From Algoriphagus iocasae (GTDB lineage Bacteria; Bacteroidota; Bacteroidia; Cytophagales; Cyclobacteriaceae), in the NCBI RefSeq assembly GCF_014206875.1, contig NZ_JACIJO010000003.1, positions 1,134,660 to 1,198,659 of the forward strand: a DNA stretch of 64,000 bases. The letters are read 5' to 3'. Within the stretch, counting starts at the first letter, position 1. Each line of letters begins with the position of its first letter. A program made the position numbers and the translations under genes. This document shows, in pieces, positions 8,150-41,794 of this stretch. The notes under the pieces were generated by a model. That model ran no database searches. It saw only the letters and a program-made list of their open reading frames with translations, and had not been told where the DNA came from.

Positions 8150-8788
8150 ATGAAAACAAAAGTGCTGGTATACGATGACAACGAAATGCTCCGGAGCAGC
8201 ATTCGTTTTTTGGTGGAATCTGAGCCTGAAATGGATCTGGTGGCTTCTCTCCCCAATGCGCAATCAGTAGAACAGGATATTGTTCAATACAAACCTGATG
8301 TAATCTTGATGGATATCGACATGCCCCTGGTCAATGGCGTCCAAGCTGTTGCACGTATCCGGAAAATAGAAGAGGACTTGCCCGTGATCATGTTGACAGT
8401 ATTTGAGGACAACGAGAACATCTTCAATGCCATTTATGCTGGAGCATCTGGATACATCCTAAAAAGACACCTCAGTGAAGAGATTGCATATGCAATCCGA
8501 ACAGTCTTGAACGGAGGAGCTCCCATGACGGGTTCCGTAGCTAAAAAAGTACTCAAAATGCTACCAAGAGCCAAAAGCCAGGAGCAGGAAAAAAGTAACT
8601 TGACGGAAAAGGAAACGAAAATTTTGGAGCTTTTGGTGCATGGGTTTAGCTACAAAATGATCGCCTCTGAGATTTTTATCAGCATCGATACCGTAAGATT
8701 TCATATTAAGAAGATTTATGAAAAGCTCCATGTACACTCAGCCACCGAGGCAGTATCCAAAGCCCTTAAAAATCGGTTGGTGGAATAA
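8150..8788 (+). CDS. LuxR/NarL-family response regulator
   Basis: 212 aa. The receiver domain has acidic residues D9/D10, phosphoacceptor D55 in ILMDIDMP, T83 and K105, all where a REC domain needs them. The C-terminal LuxR-type HTH (about 147-210) shows LTEKETKILELL and the recognition region IASEIFISIDTVRFHIKKIYEKL. It directly follows the TPR kinase and is almost certainly phosphorylated by it. The run of envelope genes downstream in the same direction is a plausible target, but no operator was identified. Confidence 0.93.
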   Translation: MKTKVLVYDDNEMLRSSIRFLVESEPEMDLVASLPNAQSVEQDIVQYKPDVILMDIDMPLVNGVQAVARIRKIEEDLPVIMLTVFEDNENIFNAIYAGASGYILKRHLSEEIAYAIRTVLNGGAPMTGSVAKKVLKMLPRAKSQEQEKSNLTEKETKILELLVHGFSYKMIASEIFISIDTVRFHIKKIYEKLHVHSATEAVSKALKNRLVE

Positions 8789-8884
8789 TTGTGCAGAGAG
8801 TTAAGAAGGAGGGGGTGATTTCCACATGAATATGTAGTTGAGAGACAATGGTTATGGTTCTAATTTTAATGAAAAATCAGAACC

Positions 8885-10156
8885 ATGAGACAACTACTTT
8901 TACTTCCGCTTTTAGTATTGGGGGAATGGGCCTTGTGCCAAAGTCTCCCAGAGAAAACCAAAGAGAAGACAGAACAAAAGGTCATTCAGCGTACGGATCA
9001 AAAAATTGATCAAAGCATTGACAAAGGCCTCAACAAAATGGAAGAGGCGATCAATGGCATGTTTAAAAAGAAATCAAAGAAGTCGAAAGAGGAACCTGGT
9101 GAAGAAGATGGATTGGATGATTCTGGTAGTGCCAAATCTCCTTCTTCCAAGTCTCCCGCTCAGGCATCTGATTTTGTGCCGGGAGTGGAAGTCTTGTTCA
9201 GTGATGATTTTTCCCAAGATGCCTTGGGGGATTTTCCTGCACAGTGGAATACCAATGGAAGTGGGCAGGTGGTTGAGGTAGAAGGTCAGCGCTGGCTGGA
9301 GGTAATCCACAACAGTATCGTCAATCCGGTGATGGACCAAGCCCTTCCCGAAAATGCCACGGTCCAGTTTGATTTGCTGCTATTGGAGGATGGCTCCACG
9401 CCATTTGTGCAGTTTGGCCTGACCAACGTGCGGGATATTCTGAGAGAAGATGTCAACTATGGCAATAAATTTTTTGTGAATATTCATGGCTTTGCAGGAA
9501 ATGACACCAAAACGCTGGAGTATGGACTCAAAGCCGATGTACTAGGCAATAAGAGTGATTTTCCATTGACCCAATACGTAAATGAGGTACTTCATGTGGA
9601 CATCGCTATCAATAAAACCCGGGTCAGAATTTATTTTGACGGGCAAAAACTGATCGACCTACCCCGGGCCCTTAGTCCGGATCTGCTCAACAATATTTTT
9701 TTCAACAATAACTACGTCATCCCTGCCTCCGAAACTCCCTTGTACCTTGGGAATGTCCGCATAGCCTCGGCCGAAACCGATGCCAGAAGCCTACTGATCA
9801 AGCAATTGATGGAAGAAGGAACTGCCTCTACCTCTGAAATACTCTTTGCGGTGAATAGTGATATCATTGAGACTTCCTCTTTTCCGATCCTGGATCAAAT
9901 AGGTCAGGCATTGCTGAGTAATCCGGGAATGAATCTTAAAATTACCGGTCACACCGATAGCGATGGAGACGATTCCAGTAACCTGGCTCTATCTATCAAC
10001 CGGGCAAATTCGGTCAAGACCTATCTGATCACCAAAAAAGGCATAGAGGCCGGAAGGTTGACCATTGATGGAAAAGGGGAGACGATGCCTGTGGCGCCAA
10101 ATACCTCTGCTGAGGGCAAAGCCAAAAACAGAAGAGTGCAATTCACTAAAAACTGA
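8885..10156 (+). CDS. OmpA-family protein with extra N-terminal domain
   Basis: 423 aa. A signal peptide ends near ALCQ, followed by a lysine/glutamate-rich low-complexity stretch (about 20-85). A central domain (about 95-300) has beta-sandwich or concanavalin-like character (VLFSDDFSQDALGDFPAQW, TVQFDLLLLEDG, RIYFDGQKLIDLP). The C-terminal domain is OmpA-like, with ITGHTDSDGDDSSNLALS, RANSVKTYL, the GKGE motif and NRRVQF, which normally bind peptidoglycan. Probably periplasmic or outer-membrane attached. The next gene starts 3 bp after the stop, so they are co-transcribed. Confidence 0.88.
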   Translation: MRQLLLLPLLVLGEWALCQSLPEKTKEKTEQKVIQRTDQKIDQSIDKGLNKMEEAINGMFKKKSKKSKEEPGEEDGLDDSGSAKSPSSKSPAQASDFVPGVEVLFSDDFSQDALGDFPAQWNTNGSGQVVEVEGQRWLEVIHNSIVNPVMDQALPENATVQFDLLLLEDGSTPFVQFGLTNVRDILREDVNYGNKFFVNIHGFAGNDTKTLEYGLKADVLGNKSDFPLTQYVNEVLHVDIAINKTRVRIYFDGQKLIDLPRALSPDLLNNIFFNNNYVIPASETPLYLGNVRIASAETDARSLLIKQLMEEGTASTSEILFAVNSDIIETSSFPILDQIGQALLSNPGMNLKITGHTDSDGDDSSNLALSINRANSVKTYLITKKGIEAGRLTIDGKGETMPVAPNTSAEGKAKNRRVQFTKN

Positions 10157-23459: not shown

Positions 23460-23948
23460 TTGGGAGGATTGAAATCTAAACCTTACATACGACCTAAAGT
23501 AGCTGTCCCCAGATTCTCGGAAGAGAACGGCTTTTACACTACCAAAGCCCGATCCTTTAACATGTCCAAAATCAGAGGACAGAACACCAAACCAGAGAAG
23601 TTATTAAAGAAAGCACTATGGCATGCAGGCGTGAGGTACAAAACCCCAAAGCATAAACTTCCAGGCAAACCCGATATCAGTCTGAAAAAATACAAACTCG
23701 TCATCTTCGTAGATGGTACCTTCTGGCATGGCTACGACTGGGAGAATAGGAGAGAAGCCATCAAGTCCAACCGGGAATTCTGGATCGCCAAGATCGAGCG
23801 GAATATGGAACGGGACATGGAAATCAACGCCTACTACAAATCAAAAAGCTGGACAGTATTGAGGTTTTGGGATTTTGAGGTGAAAGAAGAGCTCGGTACT
23901 ATTTTAAATAGGGTGTTAGCTCATTTCGACGAATACAAGTTATTTTGA
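23460..23948 (+). CDS. vsr: Very-short-patch repair (Vsr)-like endonuclease
   Basis: The homologous core begins upstream of the first ATG (FYTTKARSFNMSKIRGQNTK), so initiation is probably at TTG 23460 or 23469. PGKPDISLKKYKLVIFVDGTFWHGYD aligns with the Vsr core: Asp72 matches the catalytic Asp and His90 the FWHG His, but the other active-site His is replaced by Asp85. The protein has no cysteine, so the structural zinc site of E. coli Vsr is absent. Vsr nicks T:G mismatches left by 5-methylcytosine deamination and typically accompanies a C5 methylase; one lies 15 kb away in the island on the other strand. Confidence 0.87.
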   Translation: MGGLKSKPYIRPKVAVPRFSEENGFYTTKARSFNMSKIRGQNTKPEKLLKKALWHAGVRYKTPKHKLPGKPDISLKKYKLVIFVDGTFWHGYDWENRREAIKSNREFWIAKIERNMERDMEINAYYKSKSWTVLRFWDFEVKEELGTILNRVLAHFDEYKLF

Positions 23949-26893: not shown

Positions 26894-29269
26894 TCACACT
26901 CTTAACCCAAACCTCTTCAATTTCTTAATTGCGCTCTCCACTATCTCCAATCGTTTTAAATCAACAGTTTCTTTTCGCTTTATTTTCTGTTGAACTGAGC
27001 GTATCACGCTTAGCTCATTAAATCCCAAGGTTTGTGTTTGTTCTCCAAGATCGATAATTCTTTTCCAATCATCGTTTTCAAGTTTTTCGAGTCTATTGTA
27101 TAATTCTGCTGGGTCAATGAGGTCTTTTTCGTCAAGTTTGCTTATTGCTATAACCTTTTCAAAATCAATATTTTTTTCAGTCAAAAAATCAACAATACTA
27201 GCGCCTTTTTCAATAAGTTGATCAGAAAGGCTTCCAGACTCTTTTAGGACTTTTCTTATCATCGAAACATTTGTCTCCTGATAATTAGATAAGATACCCG
27301 TTTGCAGATTATATAGAAACAATCCGTCCCAGAACCTAAGCCCGAGAGATGTGATTTTTTGAAGTTTGTTGTATTTCTGGCTTTCTTCTAGAGAAGTGCT
27401 GTCTGATTCGTATCTGGATTTATATTCTCTTTCGTCTATCAGGTATTTTCGGATAACACCCATGTCCAGGTTATGTTCTTTTAAGCCTTTTAGTGATGCC
27501 CATGTTTTTTCTGACTTTGCAGCCTCACTTATAAGAGCAACATTCAAATTGTTAAGAAAGCCATAAACAAATTTTAATGCCTTTTTCAACTCTAATTGAA
27601 GATCTCCTGGCACGTATTGCTTTTCCCATATTATTGCTAGGTTAAGGCGATTGTCAGTCAAAAAATGAATGTAGGATAGGGCATAGGTCACTGTTTGGGA
27701 CTTGATGTTTGTGTCTCCAATTGGATCTTGGTTTTTCCGGCCGAATAGTTTGTCAGCTACTTTAAAGAGGATTGCATTTGCGACAATGTCTTGCCAGTAA
27801 ATTCGGCTGGGTTTTTTCTTTTTAAAATCCTTTTCTACTTCTTTTAAAAACTGATTGTAGTTTTTTTGAGCACCCTTGGAAACATGATAGGGCTGCTGAT
27901 TCCAGACATTAACATATTTTGCTATTTCCGACTTAACAATAACTTGGTTTCGTGGATATTTTAGTACGAAGGCATCCTTTTTTCCTTTTGTTGGTTCTTT
28001 GTTCAACGCTTCTTTGTACTGTCCTTTTACCCTTTCAAGAAACCAAACTGTTTGCTTATTTGTGTCCGAAGGATCAATGGAATAGGATGTTCTGGAAAGT
28101 TCCTCCAGCCGTTGAAGGAACGGATTGTTGGATGTCAAATCAAGTTCAGAAACCGGATTCTGGGAATTTGCATACCTCGATATATAAGGTACCGCTTCGT
28201 TCTTTTTGTCTTCGTCCTTAATGACGGTCAGCTTCATCTGGACGAACACCTTCGAGATATCAGCCTTAAATCTCTTTCCGGTATGAAACAGCGAGGCAGT
28301 TGTTTGGCCTCCATTGACTATTTGAAAGTCCTTTACTGCAGTGATTACTAAATGACCGCTTTCATTTCTTTCAGTTTTTACTTCTTGTGCTGTAGTTGCA
28401 ATCCCGTTGTTGTATGGTAAAAACATATATGGCTCCTGTCTGATTGTCTCACGGATTCCCTTGTTGATTTTACCGTTTTGTTGCAAGAAGGCTCGGACAT
28501 TGCTTTCCAAAAGTCTAGTACCATAATTCTGATAGAGGTTGGACAAAATACTTCCAGGGACTATCGCCAAATAACATTCATAAAGATCATTGCCGGAAGG
28601 CATTGAAAGACATGGGAGTACGGCTCCCAACTTTTTTTTGAAATCTATTTCAATTGGCTCTCTATTGTACTTTGACTGCGAAAGACGATGTAGACGCTCT
28701 GCATCCCAAACTTGAAAATTGAAAACAACCTCTTCAAGACCTTTAATTGAATAATTCACCGGAGGATCATGTGGGATATTTCCATTTGAAATGATGAAAA
28801 TATTTATGCGAATGATATCCTTATAATTATCACGTATTAGTTTAGCAAGGCCAAAAGCTTCCGAGGAAGGTTCTATATCCTCCAAATGACCTTTGAAAGC
28901 TGCGTTAATGAAACCAGTCGGCCATTTAATTAATTTTTCGAAATCAGATTTACCGATTCGATATAGCTGATTGGTATCTTGAAAAGAGGCTATAAAAATG
29001 TCAAGTGTCTCAAAGCCCTCTTCAATTGCGTAACCATTGATCTTAAATTGGATGTTTTCCAGTTTATTTTCCTTGATATAGGGACACAGTCTTATACTGT
29101 CAGTTTCTCCTGCTTCCGCCAATAGCTCCATTACATGCTCTGTGAATTTATTCTCTTTGGAATTTCCGTCCTCATCTGCATAGGTAAGTGAGTTGACTTC
29201 ATGATAAAGCTCCTGAAGATACTGTTCGAGTTCAAAGTCAGTGTGTAAAGTTCCTGTTATTTGGCTCAT
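26894..29269 (-). CDS. AIPR-family protein (abortive infection/phage resistance)
   Basis: 791 aa. An N-terminal alpha/beta region (about 1-210) may be nuclease-like. The AIPR core has YGTRLLESNVRAFLQQNGKI, KGIRETI, EPYMFLPYNNGIATTA and DFQIVNGGQTTASLFHTGK, in the order seen in the family. C-terminal helices complete it. AIPR proteins occur with Z1 helicases, DUF4420 nucleases and GHKL ATPases in restriction-like loci, as here. Its ATG overlaps the PD-(D/E)XK gene stop by 4 bp, so it is translationally coupled. The biochemical role is not settled. Confidence 0.92.
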   Translation of the reverse strand: MSQITGTLHTDFELEQYLQELYHEVNSLTYADEDGNSKENKFTEHVMELLAEAGETDSIRLCPYIKENKLENIQFKINGYAIEEGFETLDIFIASFQDTNQLYRIGKSDFEKLIKWPTGFINAAFKGHLEDIEPSSEAFGLAKLIRDNYKDIIRINIFIISNGNIPHDPPVNYSIKGLEEVVFNFQVWDAERLHRLSQSKYNREPIEIDFKKKLGAVLPCLSMPSGNDLYECYLAIVPGSILSNLYQNYGTRLLESNVRAFLQQNGKINKGIRETIRQEPYMFLPYNNGIATTAQEVKTERNESGHLVITAVKDFQIVNGGQTTASLFHTGKRFKADISKVFVQMKLTVIKDEDKKNEAVPYISRYANSQNPVSELDLTSNNPFLQRLEELSRTSYSIDPSDTNKQTVWFLERVKGQYKEALNKEPTKGKKDAFVLKYPRNQVIVKSEIAKYVNVWNQQPYHVSKGAQKNYNQFLKEVEKDFKKKKPSRIYWQDIVANAILFKVADKLFGRKNQDPIGDTNIKSQTVTYALSYIHFLTDNRLNLAIIWEKQYVPGDLQLELKKALKFVYGFLNNLNVALISEAAKSEKTWASLKGLKEHNLDMGVIRKYLIDEREYKSRYESDSTSLEESQKYNKLQKITSLGLRFWDGLFLYNLQTGILSNYQETNVSMIRKVLKESGSLSDQLIEKGASIVDFLTEKNIDFEKVIAISKLDEKDLIDPAELYNRLEKLENDDWKRIIDLGEQTQTLGFNELSVIRSVQQKIKRKETVDLKRLEIVESAIKKLKRFGLRV

Positions 29270-30252
29270 ATCATTGTTCTAAATACATCTGCTTCTGGAA
29301 CTTCAAATGGACCACAGGATGAAATATCAATCTGATATTTTACATTATATATAGCATCACTAAGTAGATTACCTTTTAGGATCACGGGGAATCCATTCTG
29401 AATCTTGAAGAACCTCACATTATTTACTGAATAACTAATCTCATTATAGTTTTCAATCATGTCACCACTTACTCCTGCATGTTCAAGCCTAGTTTCAAAC
29501 TCTTCTGTCAGTTCAGGGTCGTGATTTATCAAATCCTTTATTTCTTCTATAATGGCGACAAGCGAATTCTGATTTCCTGTTGTTTCAGTTACCGAAATCA
29601 AGCCAAGGAAGAGATGATCCCATGCAGTAAAATCAAGTTGCTGCTCATTTGAAACATATACTGAGGGATTGTTTGCTTTAGTTGTTTTAATCTCTACTGC
29701 GTTTCCATCCTTTGCAAAATCTTGGTTTGCACTTTCCGCACCTCTCCATGAGTGCAAAGCTTCCTGATGATTTGATGAGTTCTGAAGCAGTAAACTGAGA
29801 AAGAAAAGTTCCCCGAATAACCCTCTCTGTTTATCAGCAGATAAAAATTCTCCTGTTGCTTTGGAAAAGAGTTTTTTCCAATAATTTACCCTTTGGTTAA
29901 TTAACGTAAGAGCTTCCTGAGGTTCAGCGACCGGACCAAGTTTTTCAATAATGTCCTCTATGAACATTGTGAAAATTTCCTTCAGTTCTTTTTCAAGTAG
30001 AATGATAGTGTATTCAGTGTGGGATTGGCTGTAAGGTATTGCTTGTATTTCCACCCCACGGAATTTTCTCAGGTAGTTTTTATGTAATGCAGCTGTTGTA
30101 TCCAGTTCCATTTGAAACATTCTGGCACCCGTTACTCCAATGAGTCCAATGAAACAATTCAATCCGGAAATTGAATCAATCCGTTTTCTCACCACATTCT
30201 TTCCGGATATAGATTCCTGTTCAAGCCATAACTTTTTTATTTCACCCATCAT
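29266..30252 (-). CDS. PD-(D/E)XK motif protein (DUF4420)
   Basis: Start chosen at the double ATG (30252), 11 bp inside the Z1 gene end, because the region upstream of it is only the Z1 frame's shadow. 328 aa. The nuclease signature is GLFGELFFL (Glu148), then QDFAKDGNAVEIKTTK (Asp178, Glu187-x-Lys189), the PD-(D/E)XK layout. Family members are thought to be the DNA-cutting subunits of Z1/GHKL-type restriction-like systems. Overlaps on both sides show tight coupling. Confidence 0.9.
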   Translation of the reverse strand: MMGEIKKLWLEQESISGKNVVRKRIDSISGLNCFIGLIGVTGARMFQMELDTTAALHKNYLRKFRGVEIQAIPYSQSHTEYTIILLEKELKEIFTMFIEDIIEKLGPVAEPQEALTLINQRVNYWKKLFSKATGEFLSADKQRGLFGELFFLSLLLQNSSNHQEALHSWRGAESANQDFAKDGNAVEIKTTKANNPSVYVSNEQQLDFTAWDHLFLGLISVTETTGNQNSLVAIIEEIKDLINHDPELTEEFETRLEHAGVSGDMIENYNEISYSVNNVRFFKIQNGFPVILKGNLLSDAIYNVKYQIDISSCGPFEVPEADVFRTMI

Positions 30253-33016
30253 CTTCAGTATCGTCATCGTCCTGAAGAATTTCTTCAAATTCGTTTTGAA
30301 TAGGTCGGGCGGCATATTCATAAGTTGCCTCTCCATCAAATTCCGGGAAGATCAATCCAAAACCAACTAAGGGTATGTTTTTGTCAATGTCGGGAGAGAT
30401 CCTTGGGTCCAGAGGCATTATTACTAAAAGAGGAGTTTCTTCACAATTCCGTTTGTCTTTTATTTCCTGCTCTGTTGGCTCAAAATCAAATTGCAGATCT
30501 ATCATTCTGGCTCTTTTATCCAGAATGGCATTTTTGTTCCCCTTAACTATTAGTTCTGTCAGTCCGTTTTCAAGGTTACGGGCGGGCAGTCCGGCAGTAA
30601 TATTTCCATCACTCCAGCTGAACAGATGTGATTGAACTGGTTTACCACTGAGATCACCTTTTGTGGTAATCGTATTACCTGTATTCAAAATGACAGCAAC
30701 TGACCATTCTGTAAGTTTACCATGTTGGTTTTGCTTTTCAATGTATGACCTTAATATATCACTGCGAATGTAGCCTGACTGGTAGGAGGCGATAAAATCA
30801 GATACAATAGTTGAACTCACATTCTTCCATAACAAACCATTTATCCCCCGAACTGATTGTTGCTTTTCAGGACTGGCAAGCCGATTTAGAAGATTTGTGA
30901 ACGACTGATAGTTTGAATTTACCACAGCTGATGACTTTTCAAATGCATAAGTTTGGATCAGTTTACCAGAAAAGCCTACCTGTATTCGCTCATGATCTCT
31001 CATTCTGGTTACAGAGGTAATAAGCAACATACCGGGATGTGTTCGTACCTTTAGCTGAAAATCTTCAGGACGCAGGTTTCGAGCTGCCAACTCATCAAAA
31101 TCTGCCCGCATTTCCTCCGTGGCCATGGTCACGTGTCGATACCAGTTTACCAGTTGTTCGGTTGTATATAACCTGCAGAGATCAACATAACCAGGGCGGT
31201 AGCCGAACCACCTTCCCATTTGCATAAGAGAATCATACATACGCGTAGTACGCAGATAATAGCTGACTGATAAACCCTCCAGCGTAATGCCACGAGCCAG
31301 TTTATTTCCACCTACTGCTATTACTGACAGTCCATTTTCATATTTTCCGTAGTTGATTTCTTCAATATTGTGGTATTCAAGATCACGGGTGTTTTTTGTT
31401 CCATGTACTGCCCGAACTTCTATTTTGGTTACCGCATTGATCAATTCAGATTTTACCTTATCCCAGATCAAGGGTTTTATTTTTGGGTCAGAATAGGAAA
31501 GATTTTCAAGTACTTCTTCTGTCGTTGGAATAAAATCGTTTTTGTAGAGATCCTCCAGTTCTGTTAAAAGATCACCTTGTCCTGATTTGATTTGTCTTTT
31601 ATAATCTCTCAGTATTTCATTTACGAGCCATGCGATTCGGTCAATCCATGCTACCCTGAGTGCAACGTGTATAAGCATAGAGTTATGCTTTTTTTCCTGT
31701 CCTCTGAGGCGTCTGATTGCACATGTTAGAATAAATGATTTAATAGCATCTTTAAGTGATCCCGGAACATCATCAGGAAGTATATCCCTGTTATTGCGGT
31801 TTATTGAACGGGGAAACCAAGGCTCCTGATCTTCTGCAAGACGAATGATATCCAAGCCTTCAAACTCTTCTCCGGTTTTTTCGTTCTCGAATCCGAAAAC
31901 CTGTGCTGCTCCTATATAGTTGGATGGTGGAGGAATATTTATGATAAAGTCACGTGGAAACAAGTCTTCACCAACTTTTAACCTTACATCCTTCACCATG
32001 GTTTCGAGCTCTTCACTCCATGTTGAAGGGATAAAGAGGTTTGCATAAGGTGTGGCCGTATAACCGATAAAGGTGTTTTGATTGAACAGGTTTAATAATG
32101 TCCTGATAAGTCTGTTAATGGTTCTAACATCTATTTCAGTTCCGGAATTGACAGAAGCATTATCTGCTTCATCATCAATTACCAGAACAGGAACATTATG
32201 AATCTTTCTGTTTCCTGGAGCAACTTCAACGGCAAACTGGTTGAGCCAAAGGATTAGATTTTCCAGAACGCTTTTGTACTTTTTGATTACAAGAACAGTA
32301 GGGCTTTTCCCTCTTATTGGAACATTCAGTCTGGTAGCTATTCCCCTGTTAAAGTCTCCTTTATCATCAGATGAAGTATAGGAGTAGATTTCCGTATCAA
32401 CTTTGTAATTACCAACACCTATGCGATTGGTTTTACCTCTCAAAATTAAATCAGCACTGTTACGTCCGATATATCCTTCATCAATCCTTACCTGCGTTTG
32501 CGACCGAAGCGTATTGTGTAATCCTGCGATCACAATAATAAGTTTATAGCCGGCATCCGTTGCCTTGTTGATCAATCCTGTATAGTTAGCGGTCTTTCCT
32601 GATTGCACATTCCCTACAACCATGCCTCTTCTGTCCCATGGTCCGGAAGTTTTTGGATTGATACACTTATCCAGAATTTTGTCTGTGAGGTCATCCAGGT
32701 TATCCACAGGAAAAGAACCGTCCTTTGTTTTGAGATATGAACGATATCGGTTCCACAATTCCCACTGAATTGATGCTTTAACATCATTCAGCCAGGGTTT
32801 TACATCTTTATCTATCAGTTGTGTGGCCTGACCAGAGTAAATCTCAAAATCAGCTTCCAGCTGAGCGATCAGATCGTCCTTGATTGCACGATCAAATCCG
32901 GGCATCAGGAATACATTTTCAACTTCTGCTGCAATGATCTCTGCGTTAAGTTCCGACCGGTGGTGTTTCGTCAGCAGGACATGAGCGATATTACGGGCAC
33001 TTTCAAAATGATCCAT
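30242..33016 (-). CDS. Z1-domain helicase/endonuclease-associated ATPase
   Basis: 924 aa. Superfamily-2-like motifs are clear: Walker A GNVQSGKT (135-142), DDEAD (281-285), GYTATPYANLF (318-328), then in the Z1 domain GGNKLARGITLEGLSVSYYL and the arginine-finger motif MQMGRWFGYRPGY. The Z1 domain marks a helicase clade found almost only in restriction-type gene clusters. Likely translocates on DNA and delivers it to the nuclease. Start codon overlaps the GHKL gene stop (TAATG), and its end overlaps the nuclease start. Confidence 0.95.
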   Translation of the reverse strand: MDHFESARNIAHVLLTKHHRSELNAEIIAAEVENVFLMPGFDRAIKDDLIAQLEADFEIYSGQATQLIDKDVKPWLNDVKASIQWELWNRYRSYLKTKDGSFPVDNLDDLTDKILDKCINPKTSGPWDRRGMVVGNVQSGKTANYTGLINKATDAGYKLIIVIAGLHNTLRSQTQVRIDEGYIGRNSADLILRGKTNRIGVGNYKVDTEIYSYTSSDDKGDFNRGIATRLNVPIRGKSPTVLVIKKYKSVLENLILWLNQFAVEVAPGNRKIHNVPVLVIDDEADNASVNSGTEIDVRTINRLIRTLLNLFNQNTFIGYTATPYANLFIPSTWSEELETMVKDVRLKVGEDLFPRDFIINIPPPSNYIGAAQVFGFENEKTGEEFEGLDIIRLAEDQEPWFPRSINRNNRDILPDDVPGSLKDAIKSFILTCAIRRLRGQEKKHNSMLIHVALRVAWIDRIAWLVNEILRDYKRQIKSGQGDLLTELEDLYKNDFIPTTEEVLENLSYSDPKIKPLIWDKVKSELINAVTKIEVRAVHGTKNTRDLEYHNIEEINYGKYENGLSVIAVGGNKLARGITLEGLSVSYYLRTTRMYDSLMQMGRWFGYRPGYVDLCRLYTTEQLVNWYRHVTMATEEMRADFDELAARNLRPEDFQLKVRTHPGMLLITSVTRMRDHERIQVGFSGKLIQTYAFEKSSAVVNSNYQSFTNLLNRLASPEKQQSVRGINGLLWKNVSSTIVSDFIASYQSGYIRSDILRSYIEKQNQHGKLTEWSVAVILNTGNTITTKGDLSGKPVQSHLFSWSDGNITAGLPARNLENGLTELIVKGNKNAILDKRARMIDLQFDFEPTEQEIKDKRNCEETPLLVIMPLDPRISPDIDKNIPLVGFGLIFPEFDGEATYEYAARPIQNEFEEILQDDDDTEDDG

Positions 33017-34503
33017 TATTCAAAATATTCGATTAACTGTGTGTACTGGTTGAATGGCTCTATATTAAAAATCTGCTTTATGGCTAATTCACGATTCATT
33101 CCGGTGGATTTCAGTGACCCGTACATCATTTTGGCCAATTCTATTGTGCCAGAATCCGGTTCAGTTTGATTATCTCTTAGCTCATGACTTTCAGGTTCTT
33201 CACTGTGAAACTGAATAATAGATTCCACAGGTGTAGTTTCACCAATCAATTTCAGAACTGAGCTGAATTCTGATGCGGTTATCAATTTCTTCTCAAGCAG
33301 ACTTTTAATAATAGCATGTTCCTCATTGATGTAATAATGCCGGACATCATCCCTTCCTTTTTTTGCTTTCCAAACCGGTTGAAAGTCAAAACTTGTGATG
33401 GAATCATCCAACATTATCTGATTGCCTCTGAACCGGTGAACCGTACCAGCTGCTTTCCGAGTCATTTTTCCAAGACGAATAAGGTCTTTACGAACTGAAA
33501 GTGAAGGTGTGGCCGTGGCTTTCTTTATGTCTATTTTCCAATCATGGTCCAGAATATTTGGGATGTCAATTAGGATTCTTGCATTCTTGAAATGCTCATT
33601 TTTGGGGAATAGCCCAAGCCAATCTCCATAAAGTAGCAAACGGCTGTTGCGATAAATATAAAAACCTTGCAGGCGGTACCATTCTTCTGTTTTTGCTTTT
33701 TTACGCTCTTCCTGATTTAGTTTGGAAATGTGTGGGAGTACATAACATTTGATGCTAACCTGATTTTTATCAAGGGTTTCCTGTGCTATCAACTGGCCTC
33801 CTTCTGATTCTTTCATAAAGGGATCCCATGGTTCCAGTTTATTGCCATTCATCCAGATGGACAACTTTTTTCTTTCCATGAATCGATGAAAGACTAGGCT
33901 GAGATGTTCTTCTAGCTTTTCAAACTCTTCTAGAAATACAGTTCTTGCTGCTTCATTGTGAATATTAGCGTTGCCGACCAACCGATCCAGCTTTTCCCAA
34001 AGCACGATAGTTCCTTGATCAAATTTTTCTAGTCGTTCCTGATAGCTTTCATCAGATAGGTAGTCTAGCAAATTCCATTTACCTGTCTCATTGACAAAGT
34101 CCAGATCCCAATGCCTTTTGATTGTGCTATGTTTCTCCTTCTTAGTCAAAACCGTGAGCGCTTTACATTGAGAAAATGAGGAGGTTTTAAGTCCAAGACC
34201 AAACCTCCCTAGGTCATGCGACTCACGCTCATCCTTGGGGTCTTTGCTGCCCGGGGTCATAGCAAGGATCAATTCGACTTTGTCCATCCCTGTTCCGTTG
34301 TCAGTGATTGATACTGAGGAATTTTCACCTGCCCACTTATAATCTATCCAAACGTTTGTGGCTCTAGCAGAAATGCTATTGTCAATAATATCGGCAATTG
34401 CGGTTTGAAGATTATATCCAAAGGCCCGAAAAGTATTGATCATTGCTCCGGCTTTAGGAGGGGTTTCTTCAGCTAAATAGTATTGACCTATTTTTTTGTG
34501 CAC
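33016..34503 (-). CDS. GHKL ATPase, MutL/Hsp90-like, restriction-associated
   Basis: 495 aa. The ATP-binding Bergerat fold is intact: N-box AIADIIDNSISA (D41, N42), G1 DNGTGM (68-73) and G2 LGRFGLGLKTSS (98-109). Downstream sequence is of the type seen in MORC-like bacterial ATPases of restriction-modification loci. Such ATPases are thought to clamp on DNA and couple recognition to cleavage. The gene starts 5 bp after the kinase-ATPase stop and overlaps the Z1 gene by one base. Confidence 0.92.
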   Translation of the reverse strand: MHKKIGQYYLAEETPPKAGAMINTFRAFGYNLQTAIADIIDNSISARATNVWIDYKWAGENSSVSITDNGTGMDKVELILAMTPGSKDPKDERESHDLGRFGLGLKTSSFSQCKALTVLTKKEKHSTIKRHWDLDFVNETGKWNLLDYLSDESYQERLEKFDQGTIVLWEKLDRLVGNANIHNEAARTVFLEEFEKLEEHLSLVFHRFMERKKLSIWMNGNKLEPWDPFMKESEGGQLIAQETLDKNQVSIKCYVLPHISKLNQEERKKAKTEEWYRLQGFYIYRNSRLLLYGDWLGLFPKNEHFKNARILIDIPNILDHDWKIDIKKATATPSLSVRKDLIRLGKMTRKAAGTVHRFRGNQIMLDDSITSFDFQPVWKAKKGRDDVRHYYINEEHAIIKSLLEKKLITASEFSSVLKLIGETTPVESIIQFHSEEPESHELRDNQTEPDSGTIELAKMMYGSLKSTGMNRELAIKQIFNIEPFNQYTQLIEYFE

Positions 34504-34508
34504 CTAGC

Positions 34509-37500
34509 CTAATTTTTATATAATGAAAAAACAGAGGTTTCTTTTGTCCCTTCTGTGAACCTTTTAGGATCCCATGATTTAGGCTGAACATACCAGACCT
34601 GACTCACCATGAAACTAGAGCAGATCGATGCACTCGCAACCGTCTGAATTTTAGACCCTGTCAAAGCAATTTCAAAACTAAAGGTCTGTTCCACAAAATA
34701 TCTTTGATAAGTTATAGCCAAATATTCAATCAAAGATTTGAGGTCATCAGCGTGTGACTCTACAATTTCAGCATGATTAAACCTGCGAATAGCAACATGA
34801 GCAGCAATTCTAGCTAATTGATCTTGTGGAGAGCTTCCAGAGGGAACAATTATGTGAATTTTGTCATATTCTCTTTCATCAAGAAGCGTGAAGAGTCTTT
34901 CGTGTTTTGGTGAGGAAAATGCTATTAAAACACGCCTTGAAGAATAATTGTCAATGTTTTTGGGCATTAGTGGAATCAATTTATATGGCCCTGATTCTCC
35001 TTTGAGCACATCTGTGAGAGACTCAAGAAATTGAGTATGATCACTTTCTCTATATTCTTCCAGTAATTTTTTGATAACTTCTTCTAAGGGATAGTGTTTT
35101 TCTGCTTCAGTAAAAACCACATTTACCCTTTTACGATTGTTGAGTACAGTTCTAATTATATTGAAAATAACCGCTTTAGGGAGGCCTGTAATATCTACAG
35201 TCAGATCGTCATTAAACTGTATGCCACTTTCTATTGCTTGATCCACGGGGTGTATTTTGTAAGGTAACTTTTCTACATCTAAGCTTTGGATCATAGAGTT
35301 CTTGTTTCCAGCTTCTTTGAATTCAATGAGATCTACTTGAGAAATTGTAGCGCAATTAAGCCATCTATGTAAGGACTCTAGTGTACGTTCTTCAAATCCC
35401 AATCCAGCTATAAAGTGTAAACCTTTATCGGTCTTACAAAGGTCGTTTAAGGTGAGGTCTTCTAAGATTGGTAGCTTTTCAATAGCTAATTGTTCAAGTT
35501 TTTTAGTGGATTCTGGATCAATAATTGGCTCTTGGGATAGAGTTTCTTGTTCCCATAAAGTTGTTTGAATAACGATCTCTTCTTGTTTATAAGGTTCTTC
35601 TGATGTTCCTTCGTTATCCGTAAAGGGGAGTTCATCAGGAACTTCTGTTTTTAAGTTCCTTATTAAAATATCTTTGCCTTTTTTGGGGTTGTTTAGCCAA
35701 TCTTCTAACTCTTCTCCAGATAATTCAAAACGATCGGCATTTGATAACCCTATATGATTTGTCACACCATATAGCTTTCGGTAAACTAGCTTAAATTGTT
35801 GTTGGGGGTTAACGCCTTGCCTATTGGTACGTGAAGCTTCTGGCCCTCCTGAGAAATTAAAAATGCCAGCATCGATTAGCTCTCTTACCTGCTCATATTG
35901 TCTTTCAATATTGCCAGTAGTAATATTTATAAAGATGCTTGAATATTGCCTCAATCTTAACTTTGATCCTTCTCCCTCGGCTTCACGAGCTTTATAGGAT
36001 TGTACGAGTAGGTGATGAGTTGCTTTGGCGAAAGACTCAGCAAAGTCATACAATCTACTTTCCCTTCGATTTATATGATACAGGCGCGAATTGCAAAGAT
36101 CTAAATAGCATTCATTCTGAGCTTCTCGAGAAACAGGAAAGTTTTTGACGTTCCTGTTCAGAATCATATCATAAAGCGTAATAATATCTCCAATATCTCC
36201 AACGCAGACACTTGCAATGGCCGTAATGCCATGATATAATCCTTTTTTATCTGATGCCTTTGCCTTTCGGGCAATGTTTTCAGCAATACTTTTCAAAGTG
36301 GCATCTCCAAGAACCTGTGAAGGAATGAGATGTTTAGGGTGACCACTATGAAATTTAGAACGCTTAAGAAGAATTTTCTCAACAAACCTAGTGCCTTCAG
36401 ATTTATTTGCATGTACCTTCTCATTAACCTCATTACCCAAGTCAAATACATCATAATCTCTCCCTTCTCTAGCCTGTTCAATATTGCCAGGAGAGTTGAT
36501 GACCATTTCAAGTGTTTGCATTTCAGTAGTGAACTTGAATGCACAATATTGATCTTGAAAAAGAAGGGTGGATACCAGGTGAATTATATTGTCATCATTC
36601 AGGAAGCGCGTTGATACATCATCAAGGAGGAAAAAAACATAGCTATTATTCCATACCTCGGAACATTCACGTATTGCTTGTGCTAAAACTGGGAAGGAAA
36701 CAGCAGGATTTGCTGTAATAATATGTTTACTTTCACCTTTGCTAAGGCTGTTCAAGGCTCTTTTTAAGAAAACCTCAACTTCATGTTCTGACGGTATGTT
36801 TGTTATTTCTTCCGTACCTTCAACATATTGGGCGACTACCTTTGCAATTGAAATAAAGGAATCATGCCTAACACATTCTCTGTTTAGTTCTCTTAAGTGT
36901 TTAATAGCACTTATGGCCTCAATTGCATATGCTAAGAATAATCTTGGAAATGGCTGGTGAATTGGCTTATCCATTAATCCATGTGAATCAAGTAGTCTGG
37001 TACATGAAACATAAAGTCCTAAATAACCTTCTTTCTCAAGTCGAGCGGTTAGCTCAGTGTCTTTTTCTGTTTCATTTATTGGAATAGCCCTTGCATGAAA
37101 TTGCAATGCCCTTAATAGCATGGTTTTCCCACATCCACGCATACCTGTTATAACCAAGGGGCCACGGCTGGAAATCCGACTAATCCACCTATCATCATCA
37201 TCTACCAGTAGACTAGGAACAAACCAAGGCAACATTGTTTGTGCGTTATAGGAATCTCTAAAATTCTTGAGTTCTAATGCAGCTTTCCATGGAGAACTAA
37301 CCTGTATAGACGAACTCTTGATTTGATCTATGATTTCTGAAAATTCGAAGGTTCGTTGATTTTTGACACTCGGCAGTAATATTTTGGCACGCTCTTCCAA
37401 TAGACTGGCTAAACGATAATCGCGCTCATCTGAGCTACCTGGTAAATCAAGTATTTTTTTGCTCAGTTGATCTAGAGTGATTGCAACTCTATGTAGGTCT

Positions 37501-38186
37501 CCAACCCGGTTTGATTTGTCTCCACTTTGTGTTTTTGAAGCAAGTGACCCAAAGTCAATTGCTACTGCTTTGATAGTGTCGTCCAGCTCACCCAACCGCC
37601 TTCTTTCAGGTTCCAACTCTTCTATTATGATATTTCCTGGATGAAGATCATTGTGAAATAGCTTTTTTGACTCTAACTCGGATAACACTTTTAGAAGATC
37701 TATTGCGATTTGGCCAATTGCTGTGGCTTTCAGTTGATTTTCTGAGGCAATGAGGTGTTTGAGTGTTTTTCCTTTTACATACTGAAGAATGGCAACATGA
37801 CATTCAATTGAAGTGTCACCAAATGAAATATGATCTTCAAAGATATCGTCTATATCCACTATATGCTGAGTTCCTTCTGCTGCTTCAGCATGCGCCCTAC
37901 ACTCTTCTTGAAAATCCTTTCCAAAGAATCTATATACTTCTTTTGGGACAACTTTAAGCACACGTTTTTGGGTACGTATGGCAGTACTTTTTTCAACAAT
38001 GTAGGTGGCGCCATAGTACCCGCGTTCTAATGCATCAAGAACTTTATATTCACCAATCTGAGTAGGCCTAGTTTCTTCAAACAAAGGGAATCCATAAGGA
38101 TTACCACACTCTGGGCAGAAATCTTTCAGTTCTTTTTCACTGTAGTCCTTTTTAGGATGTAAAAAGCAGCAGTATTTTTCCATCAT
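34509..38186 (-). CDS. Zinc-finger + protein kinase + P-loop ATPase fusion, 1225 aa
   Basis: Residues 6-27 form a C-x2-H...C-x2-C zinc knuckle (CFLH, CPEC). Next comes a Ser/Thr-type kinase domain (45-250) with the needed residues: Lys78, HND at 178-180 with Asn185, and DFG at 211-213. A P-loop NTPase follows: Walker A GMRGCGKT (348-355), Walker B VFFLLDD (517-523), then ORC/STAND-like helices. The last ~280 residues form a separate domain opening with AGLGFEERTLESL that I cannot name. The gene shares one base with each reading-frame junction of the operon. It may act as a sensor or switch for the nuclease genes; substrate unknown. Confidence 0.85.
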   Translation of the reverse strand: MMEKYCCFLHPKKDYSEKELKDFCPECGNPYGFPLFEETRPTQIGEYKVLDALERGYYGATYIVEKSTAIRTQKRVLKVVPKEVYRFFGKDFQEECRAHAEAAEGTQHIVDIDDIFEDHISFGDTSIECHVAILQYVKGKTLKHLIASENQLKATAIGQIAIDLLKVLSELESKKLFHNDLHPGNIIIEELEPERRRLGELDDTIKAVAIDFGSLASKTQSGDKSNRVGDLHRVAITLDQLSKKILDLPGSSDERDYRLASLLEERAKILLPSVKNQRTFEFSEIIDQIKSSSIQVSSPWKAALELKNFRDSYNAQTMLPWFVPSLLVDDDDRWISRISSRGPLVITGMRGCGKTMLLRALQFHARAIPINETEKDTELTARLEKEGYLGLYVSCTRLLDSHGLMDKPIHQPFPRLFLAYAIEAISAIKHLRELNRECVRHDSFISIAKVVAQYVEGTEEITNIPSEHEVEVFLKRALNSLSKGESKHIITANPAVSFPVLAQAIRECSEVWNNSYVFFLLDDVSTRFLNDDNIIHLVSTLLFQDQYCAFKFTTEMQTLEMVINSPGNIEQAREGRDYDVFDLGNEVNEKVHANKSEGTRFVEKILLKRSKFHSGHPKHLIPSQVLGDATLKSIAENIARKAKASDKKGLYHGITAIASVCVGDIGDIITLYDMILNRNVKNFPVSREAQNECYLDLCNSRLYHINRRESRLYDFAESFAKATHHLLVQSYKAREAEGEGSKLRLRQYSSIFINITTGNIERQYEQVRELIDAGIFNFSGGPEASRTNRQGVNPQQQFKLVYRKLYGVTNHIGLSNADRFELSGEELEDWLNNPKKGKDILIRNLKTEVPDELPFTDNEGTSEEPYKQEEIVIQTTLWEQETLSQEPIIDPESTKKLEQLAIEKLPILEDLTLNDLCKTDKGLHFIAGLGFEERTLESLHRWLNCATISQVDLIEFKEAGNKNSMIQSLDVEKLPYKIHPVDQAIESGIQFNDDLTVDITGLPKAVIFNIIRTVLNNRKRVNVVFTEAEKHYPLEEVIKKLLEEYRESDHTQFLESLTDVLKGESGPYKLIPLMPKNIDNYSSRRVLIAFSSPKHERLFTLLDEREYDKIHIIVPSGSSPQDQLARIAAHVAIRRFNHAEIVESHADDLKSLIEYLAITYQRYFVEQTFSFEIALTGSKIQTVASASICSSFMVSQVWYVQPKSWDPKRFTEGTKETSVFSLYKN

Positions 38187-39415
38187 TATTGGATTTCTTG
38201 AAAATTATAGGGTATGTTTCTTGTTTCTCCTATGAAAATAGACTCCTTTATGAGTTTTGTAAATGACTTTTCCAAAGACCGATCACAGCGATAAGTGCAC
38301 AGCCGTTTTTTTTCCTCAATAAAATCACCATTCTGAACAGATAGGATAATTCCACAAGGGTCTGGAAACTCGGATATTAAGCCAAATCTGGATTGTATTT
38401 CAATAATAGCTGATCTCATTTTTAATAGGTCAATTTTCACGAATCCTGACTTTTCTGAAAGCAATTCATAATAGTGTTCATCTTTGATTTTGTCAGTAAG
38501 AGTGTAGAAGTGTTCTATTGATCCACCTTGCAATTCAATATTCTCCAAAAAATGATCTTCTAAAGTTGTGATTTCTATCCCTGACACTCCACTTTTCAAA
38601 CGGCTTTCAGCAATTCCAATGGACATAGCATAGCACTCGGTTACATGCTTCATAAGCCATTCGGAATTATCATTCTGACCCGTAAAAATCTCTCTTAGTG
38701 CCAAAAGTGCTTCTCCTCGACCAATGTAAGGTTGAAAAGGGTTATTTGCATTGGTAAGAAAACAGGTTGCTCTTATATTCAATATTCTTGCGACATCAAT
38801 AAACAACTGAGCATTTCTTTTTGCAGTTTCCCAATCGCTACCGAAATTTCCAAAATCTGAAACTCTTATGTCTAAACCTGTAGTTTGTAATCCCACGGCA
38901 ATTTTTTTAGATAGAATACTGGCAACAACAAGTGCAGGAATACCTATCCTTTTAATTGATTTTCTGTATTTAAAAAGTTGTCTATCCAGTGGGGCATAAT
39001 TGTCTCCACCAATAAAGTGTACATAATCACTTTCTTGGAGCCATTCCTTAAGGGTGGTTGAATCAGGGTTAATATTATATCCTTTTATTTGAGCTAGAAC
39101 GTCAATACCCCCAGCCGGTCTCCCAGGGACGCCAAGTTTAGGGACTGTATATCCTATTTGCCGAAGGAATAAGGGGGTTATTAATGTGGATAATGAGGAG
39201 GGACCTCCTGTAGATGGAATATCAGCCAGTATTTTATTTGATTTAGAAAGGTTTAGGATATTCCCAGAATTAGCCAAATGAAGAGCCAATTGAGCTATAT
39301 CATCTAATTTAATTTTTGATTCACTAAAATCTATTAGAGCTTCAAAAGCACCGGAGCTAGGAGAAAAATGATTAAGGTCATCTAATATTTTAGAGAATGC
39401 TGTCATTTTAATCAT
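38186..39415 (-). CDS. Thymidine/pyrimidine-nucleoside phosphorylase-like protein
   Basis: 409 aa, similar in length and order of motifs to DeoA. By recalled alignment, the uracil/thymine contacts of E. coli DeoA are kept: Arg151 (R171), Ser166 (S186) and Lys170 (K190) in FKYRK and ASILSKK. The glycine loop is kept as STGGPSSLST (68-77). However, the phosphate-side residues are altered: the DKHSTGG motif is DIPSTGG (K84 to Ile66, H85 to Pro67), and the S113 and T123 positions also differ. It overlaps the methylase by 8 bp. Either it has new chemistry or it senses a nucleoside. An odd partner for a methylase. Confidence 0.82.
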   Translation of the reverse strand: MIKMTAFSKILDDLNHFSPSSGAFEALIDFSESKIKLDDIAQLALHLANSGNILNLSKSNKILADIPSTGGPSSLSTLITPLFLRQIGYTVPKLGVPGRPAGGIDVLAQIKGYNINPDSTTLKEWLQESDYVHFIGGDNYAPLDRQLFKYRKSIKRIGIPALVVASILSKKIAVGLQTTGLDIRVSDFGNFGSDWETAKRNAQLFIDVARILNIRATCFLTNANNPFQPYIGRGEALLALREIFTGQNDNSEWLMKHVTECYAMSIGIAESRLKSGVSGIEITTLEDHFLENIELQGGSIEHFYTLTDKIKDEHYYELLSEKSGFVKIDLLKMRSAIIEIQSRFGLISEFPDPCGIILSVQNGDFIEEKKRLCTYRCDRSLEKSFTKLIKESIFIGETRNIPYNFQEIQ

Positions 39416-41078
39416 TATTTAAATTAGAAAACAACTTAAGAACTACCTCCCCAATTTGTTTAGCCAAAAATGGCGGTACTGCATTTCCCACCTGGTGATA
39501 TTGGGCAGTTCTGGATCCACAGAATAAATAGTTGTCTGGGAAGGTTTGGACTCTTGCAGCTTCTCTTACAGTCAATGACCTACATTGCATTGGATCGTAA
39601 TGGATAAAGTAATGACCATCTTTAGAAATATGGCTTGTAACCGTGGTAGCTGGCTTATCGGCTACTTGTACTCTAAATCGATCAGCAAACTTTCCTGTAT
39701 CAACATTTGCATGATCAGGTATTAATTCATTGTGATGTTCTGCATAGTCAATTAAACGAGGGAAATCTCCGTTTTTCTTGGTATAAAGTGCTGCAAACAT
39801 ATACCTCATCAAATCTTGAGTAAGATGAGATCTTGATTCATGGTTTGCCACACCTTTGATTTTTGGATCTTTATACCAATTTTGAAGTTCAATATTGCAA
39901 TCAGTCTCACTTGGAGTTTTACTGGATAAGAATTCCTTTCCAATTCCGTTTACAAGATTTTCACTATTAATTTTAAACTCGTTTGGAATTAAATCCCCCC
40001 AAGTTTCAAGCTTCCCAACTTGTTGCTTCATAATGTTTTCCCAAAGCTGATCGCTGTCTTTTAGGGCTTGATATATTCGCTTTGGACTTCCATCGGCGTA
40101 TTTCTCTACGGGGTGATATTTGATAAATTTTTTACTTATTCCACTTCTTATTCTGGGAAGCTTTCCTATCACTGATTTCAAAATTGTTGGTGAATCCATT
40201 TTCGATAGAACTATTGGTTCTACTTTAATATCTTCTCTTATTCCCAACAAAATGACCCTATGCCGTCTTTGGGGAACACCGTATTTTTCACTTTTAATTA
40301 AAAAATCTGTATTATTTTCATAAATAGGATAGCCTTTAAAGTATGAATTGGGAGATTTTGCCAAGGAGTAGATTTTATATTTTGGAGAAGAAAGTCCAGT
40401 GAAAACCCTACCTGGATCTTTCAAATCCTTTTTAATTAAATCAAAAACCTTAATATCATCAACTTCAGCAGAAAGCAAACCTTTCACGTTTTCCATTACA
40501 AAAACCGCTGGATGATGGTTTGCAATAATTCGTAAATATTCTTTATAAAGGTGGACTCTATGGTCAGAATTGGAAATCCCCTGATTTCTCGAACGTCCTA
40601 CAAGTGAATAAGCTTGGCATGGTGGTCCACCAATAAGTAAAAAATCCCTATTTCCTTTAAGTGCTTTAGAGATTTTATCATCTATTGTTTTATTGCGCTC
40701 TAAAATTTCAAGAGGCTTATAACCTCCCTTTTTTTTGCCGTTTTTATCAAATTCTTCAGGATAGGGAAGTTCAAAACACCAAGCCTCATTATTAGCGTTT
40801 TCCCATTCTAAGGGATACTTGTTTTTGAGTTGATCAATCAACTTTTTCCTTTTCTTCCAAGTATTAGCCCTCATTATTTCATAATAATGTTCTGGTACTT
40901 CACTTACCGGAAATTGCCTAAAAAAACTTCTTAAGCGTAGGGTTTCATGAGCGTTTTCATCCTTTTCAATGGAAAGCTTGATGTCATAAACTCGTTTATT
41001 ATTCTTATCTACAATTGAGGAAAATCCTTCTCCTAGACCACCTGGGCCAGCAAATATATCGATGATGGGGATCGGCAT
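39408..41078 (-). CDS. dcm: DNA (cytosine-5-)-methyltransferase
   Basis: 556 aa. Motif I is DIFAGPGGLGEGF (7-19), motif IV GGPPCQAYS with catalytic Cys154, motif VI ENV (196-198), motif VIII QRRHR (270-274), and motif X QVGNAVPP (529-536). All needed residues are there, so it should transfer methyl from SAM to C5 of cytosine. The target is unreadable, but the long region between motifs VIII and X includes the recognition domain. It is longer than a typical Dcm because of insertions at about 50-140 and 300-480. First gene of the island operon, behind a clear SD and its own promoter region. Confidence 0.95.
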   Translation of the reverse strand: MPIPIIDIFAGPGGLGEGFSSIVDKNNKRVYDIKLSIEKDENAHETLRLRSFFRQFPVSEVPEHYYEIMRANTWKKRKKLIDQLKNKYPLEWENANNEAWCFELPYPEEFDKNGKKKGGYKPLEILERNKTIDDKISKALKGNRDFLLIGGPPCQAYSLVGRSRNQGISNSDHRVHLYKEYLRIIANHHPAVFVMENVKGLLSAEVDDIKVFDLIKKDLKDPGRVFTGLSSPKYKIYSLAKSPNSYFKGYPIYENNTDFLIKSEKYGVPQRRHRVILLGIREDIKVEPIVLSKMDSPTILKSVIGKLPRIRSGISKKFIKYHPVEKYADGSPKRIYQALKDSDQLWENIMKQQVGKLETWGDLIPNEFKINSENLVNGIGKEFLSSKTPSETDCNIELQNWYKDPKIKGVANHESRSHLTQDLMRYMFAALYTKKNGDFPRLIDYAEHHNELIPDHANVDTGKFADRFRVQVADKPATTVTSHISKDGHYFIHYDPMQCRSLTVREAARVQTFPDNYLFCGSRTAQYHQVGNAVPPFLAKQIGEVVLKLFSNLNND

Positions 41079-41282: not shown

Positions 41283-41732
41283 TCACTTCCCCTTAATCCT
41301 CTTCACCTCCTCAGCCAAATCCATCACTGTCTTGGTCAATGACTCTATTTGCGCAGACTTTCTCTGATCATCTTGGAGATACTTCTCTAAAAGTTGGACT
41401 ATTTGATCAACTGGGTGGTATTCGATGTGCGGATAACTATGCTGACTGGAATTCACAGCATGATCATTAAAAATATTATTTGACTGAATATTGTAAATAG
41501 CGCTATCTGGATTGAAATTTTCAATGAATTCTGGTGTTACACCTAATTTTTTTGCTATAATTCCTAATGGTTCTTCCTCAATAATCTCTGAATTTTCCAA
41601 TTTGGACATTTGTTGCTGGCTCCATCCGCAGTCCTCTGCCAGTGCATATTGTTTGATGCCCATTATTTCTCTTAGCCTTTTTACGTTACGTCCATGATGG
41701 ACAAAACCTCGGTCTTTTTTTGCTTCGCTCAT
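41283..41732 (-). CDS. XRE-family transcriptional regulator
   Basis: Start at ATG 41732 (MSEAKKDRG); an upstream GTG would add 13 residues overlapping palindromes. 149 aa. The HTH_3 region is VKRLREIMGIKQYALAEDCGWSQQQMSKLENSEII. After a variable middle, the C-terminus is a coiled coil (DQIVQLLEKYLQDDQRKSAQ and so on) likely for dimerisation. It precedes the methylase operon in the same direction but is separated by a terminator. It may be a controller of the restriction-like genes, though similar stand-alone regulators are common. Confidence 0.85.
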   Translation of the reverse strand: MSEAKKDRGFVHHGRNVKRLREIMGIKQYALAEDCGWSQQQMSKLENSEIIEEEPLGIIAKKLGVTPEFIENFNPDSAIYNIQSNNIFNDHAVNSSQHSYPHIEYHPVDQIVQLLEKYLQDDQRKSAQIESLTKTVMDLAEEVKRIKGK

Positions 41733-41757
41733 AGTGGAAAGATAAAAATTTGTTGCA

Positions 41758-41794
41758 TGGTAAGATACCACAGAGAGTGGTTTTTTACCGGGTA
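41758..41794 (-). promoter_or_regulatory. Paired palindromes upstream of XRE gene
   Basis: TGGTA-AGA-TACCA (41758-41770) and TACC-G-GGTA (41786-41794) share the TACC/GGTA arms and lie just upstream of the XRE start. They are a plausible autoregulatory operator of the XRE protein. Confidence 0.35.

Follow-up and report, generated by a model that had tools for sequence, protein, structure and literature searches.

A thymidine-phosphorylase-like protein with a rebuilt pocket, encoded beside a CARF kinase in a defence-type operon of Algoriphagus iocasae

A 64,000-nucleotide stretch of the Algoriphagus iocasae genome (contig NZ_JACIJO010000003.1, positions 1,134,660 to 1,198,659; hereafter the window) contains a gene (38186..39415, minus strand) for a thymidine-phosphorylase-like protein of 409 amino acids, TPL, in which DIPSTGG and GRPAGG stand where DKHSTGG and GHTGGT are usual. 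Our leading reading, tentative and held with somewhat less than even confidence, is that TPL represents a separate subfamily of the thymidine phosphorylase/pyrimidine-nucleoside phosphorylase (TP/PyNP) fold, and that, judging from sequence comparisons, it may have given up ordinary phosphorolysis, may still read a pyrimidine and may serve the CARF-containing kinase encoded next to it as a dedicated partner on the signal side. This reading draws on the constant pairing of the two genes, the exchangeable cassettes around them, the kept pyrimidine-reading residues and the kept CARF signature.

The full three-part TP/PyNP fold is present in TPL, in agreement with the sequence-only reading, which had described the protein as DeoA-like along its whole length. 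Compared with the members of this fold (DeoA, PyNP; 1brw, 2dsj, 4x46), to which it is about 19-20% identical, TPL lacks the Lys and His of the DKHS motif, has the GHTGGT loop shortened to GRPAGG and carries new invariant Arg, His, Gln and Glu residues; its score against TIGR02644 (113.1 bits) is below the curated NCBIfam cut-off of 409. The identity to archaeal AMP phosphorylase (4ga4, 4ga5) is likewise about 20%, and the corresponding TIGR03327 score (55 bits, cut-off 535) is lower than that for PyNP. In the tree all 46 TPL rows cluster without canonical members, with supports (0.32 and 0.51) that are low or unreliable after rerooting. Two remoter phosphorylase relatives without the DKHSTGG word (L052 and L053) were kept outside the pocket table described below.

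The pocket was compared over 135 aligned rows, 31-75% identical to TPL of the window, in which one gene may appear from two sources. The replacement of DKHSTGG by DIPSTGG, first noticed in the window, proved to be real and family-wide: the motif Lys and His occur in none of the rows, the former being replaced by Ile, Val or Leu (118, 10 and 7 rows, respectively) and the latter by Pro or Ala (105 and 30). The base-binding residues, said in the sequence-only reading to be retained, are indeed invariant (Arg151, Ser166 and Lys170 in 135/135), as are Ser68 and Thr77, which by alignment occupy the positions of Ser86 and Ser95 of DeoA, and Lys171, Lys93, Gly98-Arg99-Pro100-Ala101-Gly102, His133, Arg184, Asn190, Gly192, Gln228, Arg233, Glu235 and His257. 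For comparison, seven canonical thymidine phosphorylases (one from a related genome, the other six from genomes in which a TPL locus also occurs) were set against 46 TPL rows. All seven keep both the Lys and the His of the motif and uniformly have Val at the site of Pro72, Asp at Ser74, Ser at Gly95, His at Arg99, Thr at Pro100, Lys at Arg184, Ala at Asn190, Met at Gly192, Gly at Gln228 and Asn at Arg233, while at the Lys93 site one of them also has Lys. No part of TPL is better conserved than the pocket, and the pattern of its substitutions points to a coherent rebuild rather than sporadic decay.

Mutants of the human thymidine phosphorylase allow the consequences of these changes to be predicted. 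Its His116 touches N1 and O2 of 5-iodouracil, and the Phe and Lys mutants of this residue are dead, as are R202E, R202S and S217G, while K115A is active and K115E inactive (PMC2719695). Since the motif His is gone from TPL and the human His116 mutants are dead, the loss of ordinary phosphorolysis is predicted, chiefly through this missing residue; the reading of the pyrimidine base, by contrast, is predicted to persist. The leucine of the human loop that lines the 5-position pocket aligns to a stretch absent from TPL.

The distribution of the family was followed by scanning one genome per species (84,980 species) with two TPL peptide patterns, which, being exact, miss divergent members; of 290 stretches with a pattern match 36 were relatives, and 35 loci were obtained, the latter spanning several bacterial phyla and including one labelled as an archaeon (Bathycorpusculum). 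A kinase/AAA/CARF gene adjoins TPL in 33 of the 35 loci, that is, in all those with room for it, the contigs of the other two (L006 and L037) stopping 166 and 0 bp after TPL. In 31 pairs both genes lie on the same strand, with overlaps of the open reading frames of at most 59 nt or gaps of at most 91 nt, and two pairs (L021 and L034) are convergent; the kinase frames of L013, L019, L021, L022 and L027 are partial or split, that of L021 being short (226 amino acids). An origin of the loci as salvage operons was rejected as the main reading on this ground and because a separate canonical PyNP exceeds the cut-off elsewhere in 7 of 29 host genomes. The latter set, used for all host-genome searches, consists of the genome of the window and those of 28 of the 35 loci (L006, L013, L019, L021, L022, L027 and L037 lie outside it); in the genome of the window the phosphorylase search returned only TPL and one TrpD-like match.

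The kinase gene of the window (34509..38186, minus strand) encodes a protein of 1225 amino acids, recognised by Pfam, by model and fold matches, by its motifs and by the PADLOC profile CARF6--CARF_STK_AAA (PDLC01925; 1591.8 bits, residues 2-1222 against positions 1-1184 of 1187). A Zn ribbon is followed by a kinase domain (about 49-230), an ORC-CDC6-like AAA domain (308-629) and a C-terminal tandem CARF region (about 920-1225), in which the CARF fold is present; its sequence profile matched no solved structure. The ligand signature of CARF domains, [DN]X[ST]XXX[RK] after strand 4 (PMC4012209), is found in the first half as D-x-[TS]-G-L-x-K, with D, K and T or S each in 29/29 sequences, and only partly in the second half (L-[TS]-G-x-K); the kinase, ATPase and CARF motifs are conserved in the family. 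With its Zn ribbon, kinase domain, Arg inside the P-loop and CARF region, the protein resembles the CARF_STK_AAA family described by Makarova et al. (2014), who proposed that CARF signals via the kinase (PMC4012209), and differs from Can1, a tandem-CARF nuclease of type III CRISPR systems (6sce), in that its CARF region is fused to kinase and AAA domains. What the family senses is not stated in the available part of that paper, whose main text mentions no phosphorylase neighbour (the word occurs 0 times).

The distances of TPL and kinase are correlated at 0.85 over 29 rows (the window and 28 loci). For the 25 rows in which all three genes occur the values are 0.82 for TPL and kinase, 0.57 for TPL and methylase and 0.68 for kinase and methylase; shared ancestry inflates all of them, and only the contrast between them is used here.

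We propose the following scheme. A pyrimidine nucleoside or nucleotide that arises during infection, e.g., from DNA that has been degraded or modified, would enter the rebuilt pocket of TPL, which would hold or convert it, the new invariant Arg, His and Gln standing in for the Lys-His machinery. The tandem CARF region would read the loaded TPL complex or the product and switch the AAA/kinase part, and the kinase would then license the effector cassette of the locus (in the window, Mza-like proteins and an AIPR protein), while the C5-methylase would mark self DNA. The interpretation offered in the sequence-only reading is partly supported; a role in modified-base metabolism, the second that it suggested, is among the rivals considered below. 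A bolder version of the proposal, which we consider rather unlikely, has TPL produce or gate a novel CARF messenger other than cyclic oligoadenylate: TPL would recognise phage-released or altered pyrimidine nucleotides and transfer or exchange base or sugar, with the product or the loaded TPL switching the kinase. The ligands could be 5-substituted, because TPL lacks the stretch that holds the 5-position leucine of the human enzyme. If this is true, bacterial immunity would include a further, separate type of nucleotide signalling. As to known synthases of cyclic-nucleotide signals, Csm1-type Cas10 exceeds the cut-off in 2/29 hosts (any match at E 0.001 in nine, the remainder weak), Cmr2 in none, with weak matches confined to two genomes, the very ones that carry Cas10, and the SMODS nucleotidyltransferase in four (any match in five); together they mark five hosts, including the genome of the window, and the other 24 have none of the tested synthases, within the completeness of the genomes and for these families only.

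Several observations weigh against the signal-side role of TPL. A new anion site could still permit phosphorolysis, and an ordinary cyclic-nucleotide ligand of the CARF region is still conceivable here, given three SMODS matches over the cut-off in the genome of the window, all outside the window itself (G000:C1:423469, C1:1176491 and C3:444783), where other cyclic-nucleotide defence systems may thus be present. The correlated distances are partly accounted for by shared ancestry, and the pairing was counted from the TPL side, kinases without TPL being covered narrowly. One such kinase is known, a relative with 38.5% identity on a Loktanella plasmid (L040, NZ_CP072995); TPL is missing from the 33.6 kb fetched there, and the kinase can therefore occur without it. 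Encoded beside the Loktanella kinase are a metallophosphoesterase that has a Pua-like domain and a C5-methylase accompanied by a NaeI-type endonuclease; possibly, another enzyme replaces TPL there. Finally, two loci (L010 and L017) look near-minimal, consisting of methylase, TPL and kinase with no obvious extra effector, as would be expected if TPL itself were the effector.

The last point favours the main rival, according to which TPL is a pyrimidine nucleosidase or nucleotide destroyer that the kinase-AAA-CARF protein both restrains and activates, and that starves the phage of pyrimidine nucleotides. The strictly conserved rebuilt pocket, in which the phosphorolytic His is lost and the new Arg could hold 5'-phosphates, would suit such an enzyme, and the Detocs system, with nucleotide-degrading phosphorylase-fold effectors of another superfamily, offers a precedent. 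However, sensors are usually constant and effectors variable, whereas here it is TPL that is constant and the cassettes that vary, and we consider this explanation doubtful. Recycling of pyrimidines from destroyed DNA by a TPL that is still phosphorolytic through another phosphate site (e.g., Arg99) could be argued from the retention of Ser68 and Thr77 and from the activity of human K115A, but the universal absence of the catalytic His, the dead H116F and H116K mutants, the canonical PyNP already present in seven hosts and the constant pairing with a signalling kinase make it improbable.

A role of TPL in making or removing a modified pyrimidine for the methylase, in which case self DNA would not carry plain 5-methylcytosine, is hardly to be expected either. 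It would agree with the presence of a C5-methylase in 27 of the 35 loci (directly upstream and on the same strand in 13) and of Vsr-like genes, which clustering places in 12 loci and a second search in 16, Pfam-confirmed only for L004 and the window; on the other hand, a C5-methylase is missing from the DNA fetched for eight loci, some of these sequences ending early, and the TPL distances track those of the kinase more closely than those of the methylase. The overlapping genes and constant pairing would also be expected if TPL were a structural subunit or chaperone of the kinase with a relic pocket, yet a relic would not need new invariant polar residues in what is the best conserved part of the protein, and we regard this as very improbable. 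The signal-side reading, if correct, offers a concrete and testable answer to the question of what the CARF kinase senses, namely through its conserved pyrimidine-reading neighbour. The loci holding the two genes are predicted to be antiviral, and TPL may there help the kinase to notice infection.

The TP/PyNP fold, the kinase-AAA-CARF family and Mza-type genes are each already known separately. No publication linking this kinase family to TPL was found in a partial coverage of the literature, where an earlier mention is possible; as far as this search shows, both the rebuilt-pocket subfamily to which TPL belongs and the association of that subfamily with the CARF kinase are new. They would represent the recruitment of a nucleoside-salvage fold to defence-type operons, its active site coherently rebuilt, in several phyla and the archaeon-labelled locus.

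In the window all genes of the run lie on the minus strand. Upstream of TPL are genes for a helix-turn-helix (Cro/C1-type) protein (41283..41771; PF01381, 30.8 bits), a possible regulator of the operon by its position, and a C5-cytosine DNA methyltransferase of 556 amino acids (39408..41078; PF00145, 158 bits; best PADLOC match DrmMII, 293 bits). Beyond TPL and the kinase lie genes for an MzaB-like GHKL ATPase (33016..34503; NF041932, 392.8 bits, cut-off 850; PADLOC MzaB, 326.5 bits), an MzaC-like protein (30242..33016; PF10593, 270 bits; NF041933, 650.6 bits, cut-off 1500; PADLOC MzaC, 553.3 bits), an MzaD-like DUF4420 protein, putatively of the PD-(D/E)XK kind (29266..30339; PF14390, 205 bits; NF041934, 111 bits, cut-off 420; PADLOC MzaD, 60 bits), and, as the last of the run, an AIPR protein (26894..29269; PF10592, 295.7 bits; PF22879, 130.9 bits). 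The consecutive MzaB-, MzaC- and MzaD-like genes followed by AIPR resemble the MZA anti-phage system, but all three proteins are under the NCBIfam equivalog cut-offs (the PADLOC profiles display none), and the operon adds the TPL and kinase genes. MzaA and MzaE were absent from the NCBIfam and PADLOC matches listed for seven proteins, for two of which the PADLOC matches are the best 25, the AIPR protein having been scanned by Pfam only. About 3 kb past the AIPR gene, on the opposite strand, lies a gene for a Vsr-type mismatch endonuclease (23460-23948, plus strand; PF03852, 99 bits); C5-methylases with Vsr endonucleases have also been described next to MORC/paraMORC ATPases (PMC2292703).

The sequence-only reading had proposed to see whether homologues always lie between dcm-like and Z1-locus genes. 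A C5-methylase lies directly upstream in the 13 loci mentioned above; Mza-type genes are found in only three loci (L003, L004 and L035), and the TPL-kinase pair stands without them in 32 of the 35, within the DNA fetched. Elsewhere the cassettes include GHKL/histidine-kinase-type proteins (by similarity in L009, L011, L018, L020 and L026, with Pfam run on L009 and L018), in L018 and L020 together with Response_reg_2 proteins (Pfam), that is, a two-component-like cassette; an AAA_15/21 protein (Pfam on L012, similar proteins in six further loci); a helicase with MZB in L005; and PD-(D/E)XK in L021. Proteins in L009, L018, L020 and L026 carry the GHKL ATPase domain twice, according to Pfam in the case of L009 and L018.

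TPL occurs among 58 related genomes only in that of the window, the one other match being 25% identical and having the canonical DKHSTGG, and the kinase search of 395 genomes of the phylum also found only the window's own protein. The viral_contigs scan for TPL returned no relative, and the viral scan with the window kinase, where a query of one sequence detects only close relatives, returned none. Carriage of TPL by phages or plasmids was rejected, the matches listed having 22-33% identity and the annotated ones being named TP or PyNP. As for individual loci, in L014 the gene immediately upstream of TPL, on the other strand (8721-9698, minus strand), codes for a protein of the PNP_UDP_1 phosphorylase superfamily (37 bits), and in L005 (5319-9771, plus strand) genes for a Mu-type transposase and TniQ lie immediately upstream of TPL, which suggests that this locus is carried by a Tn7-like element.
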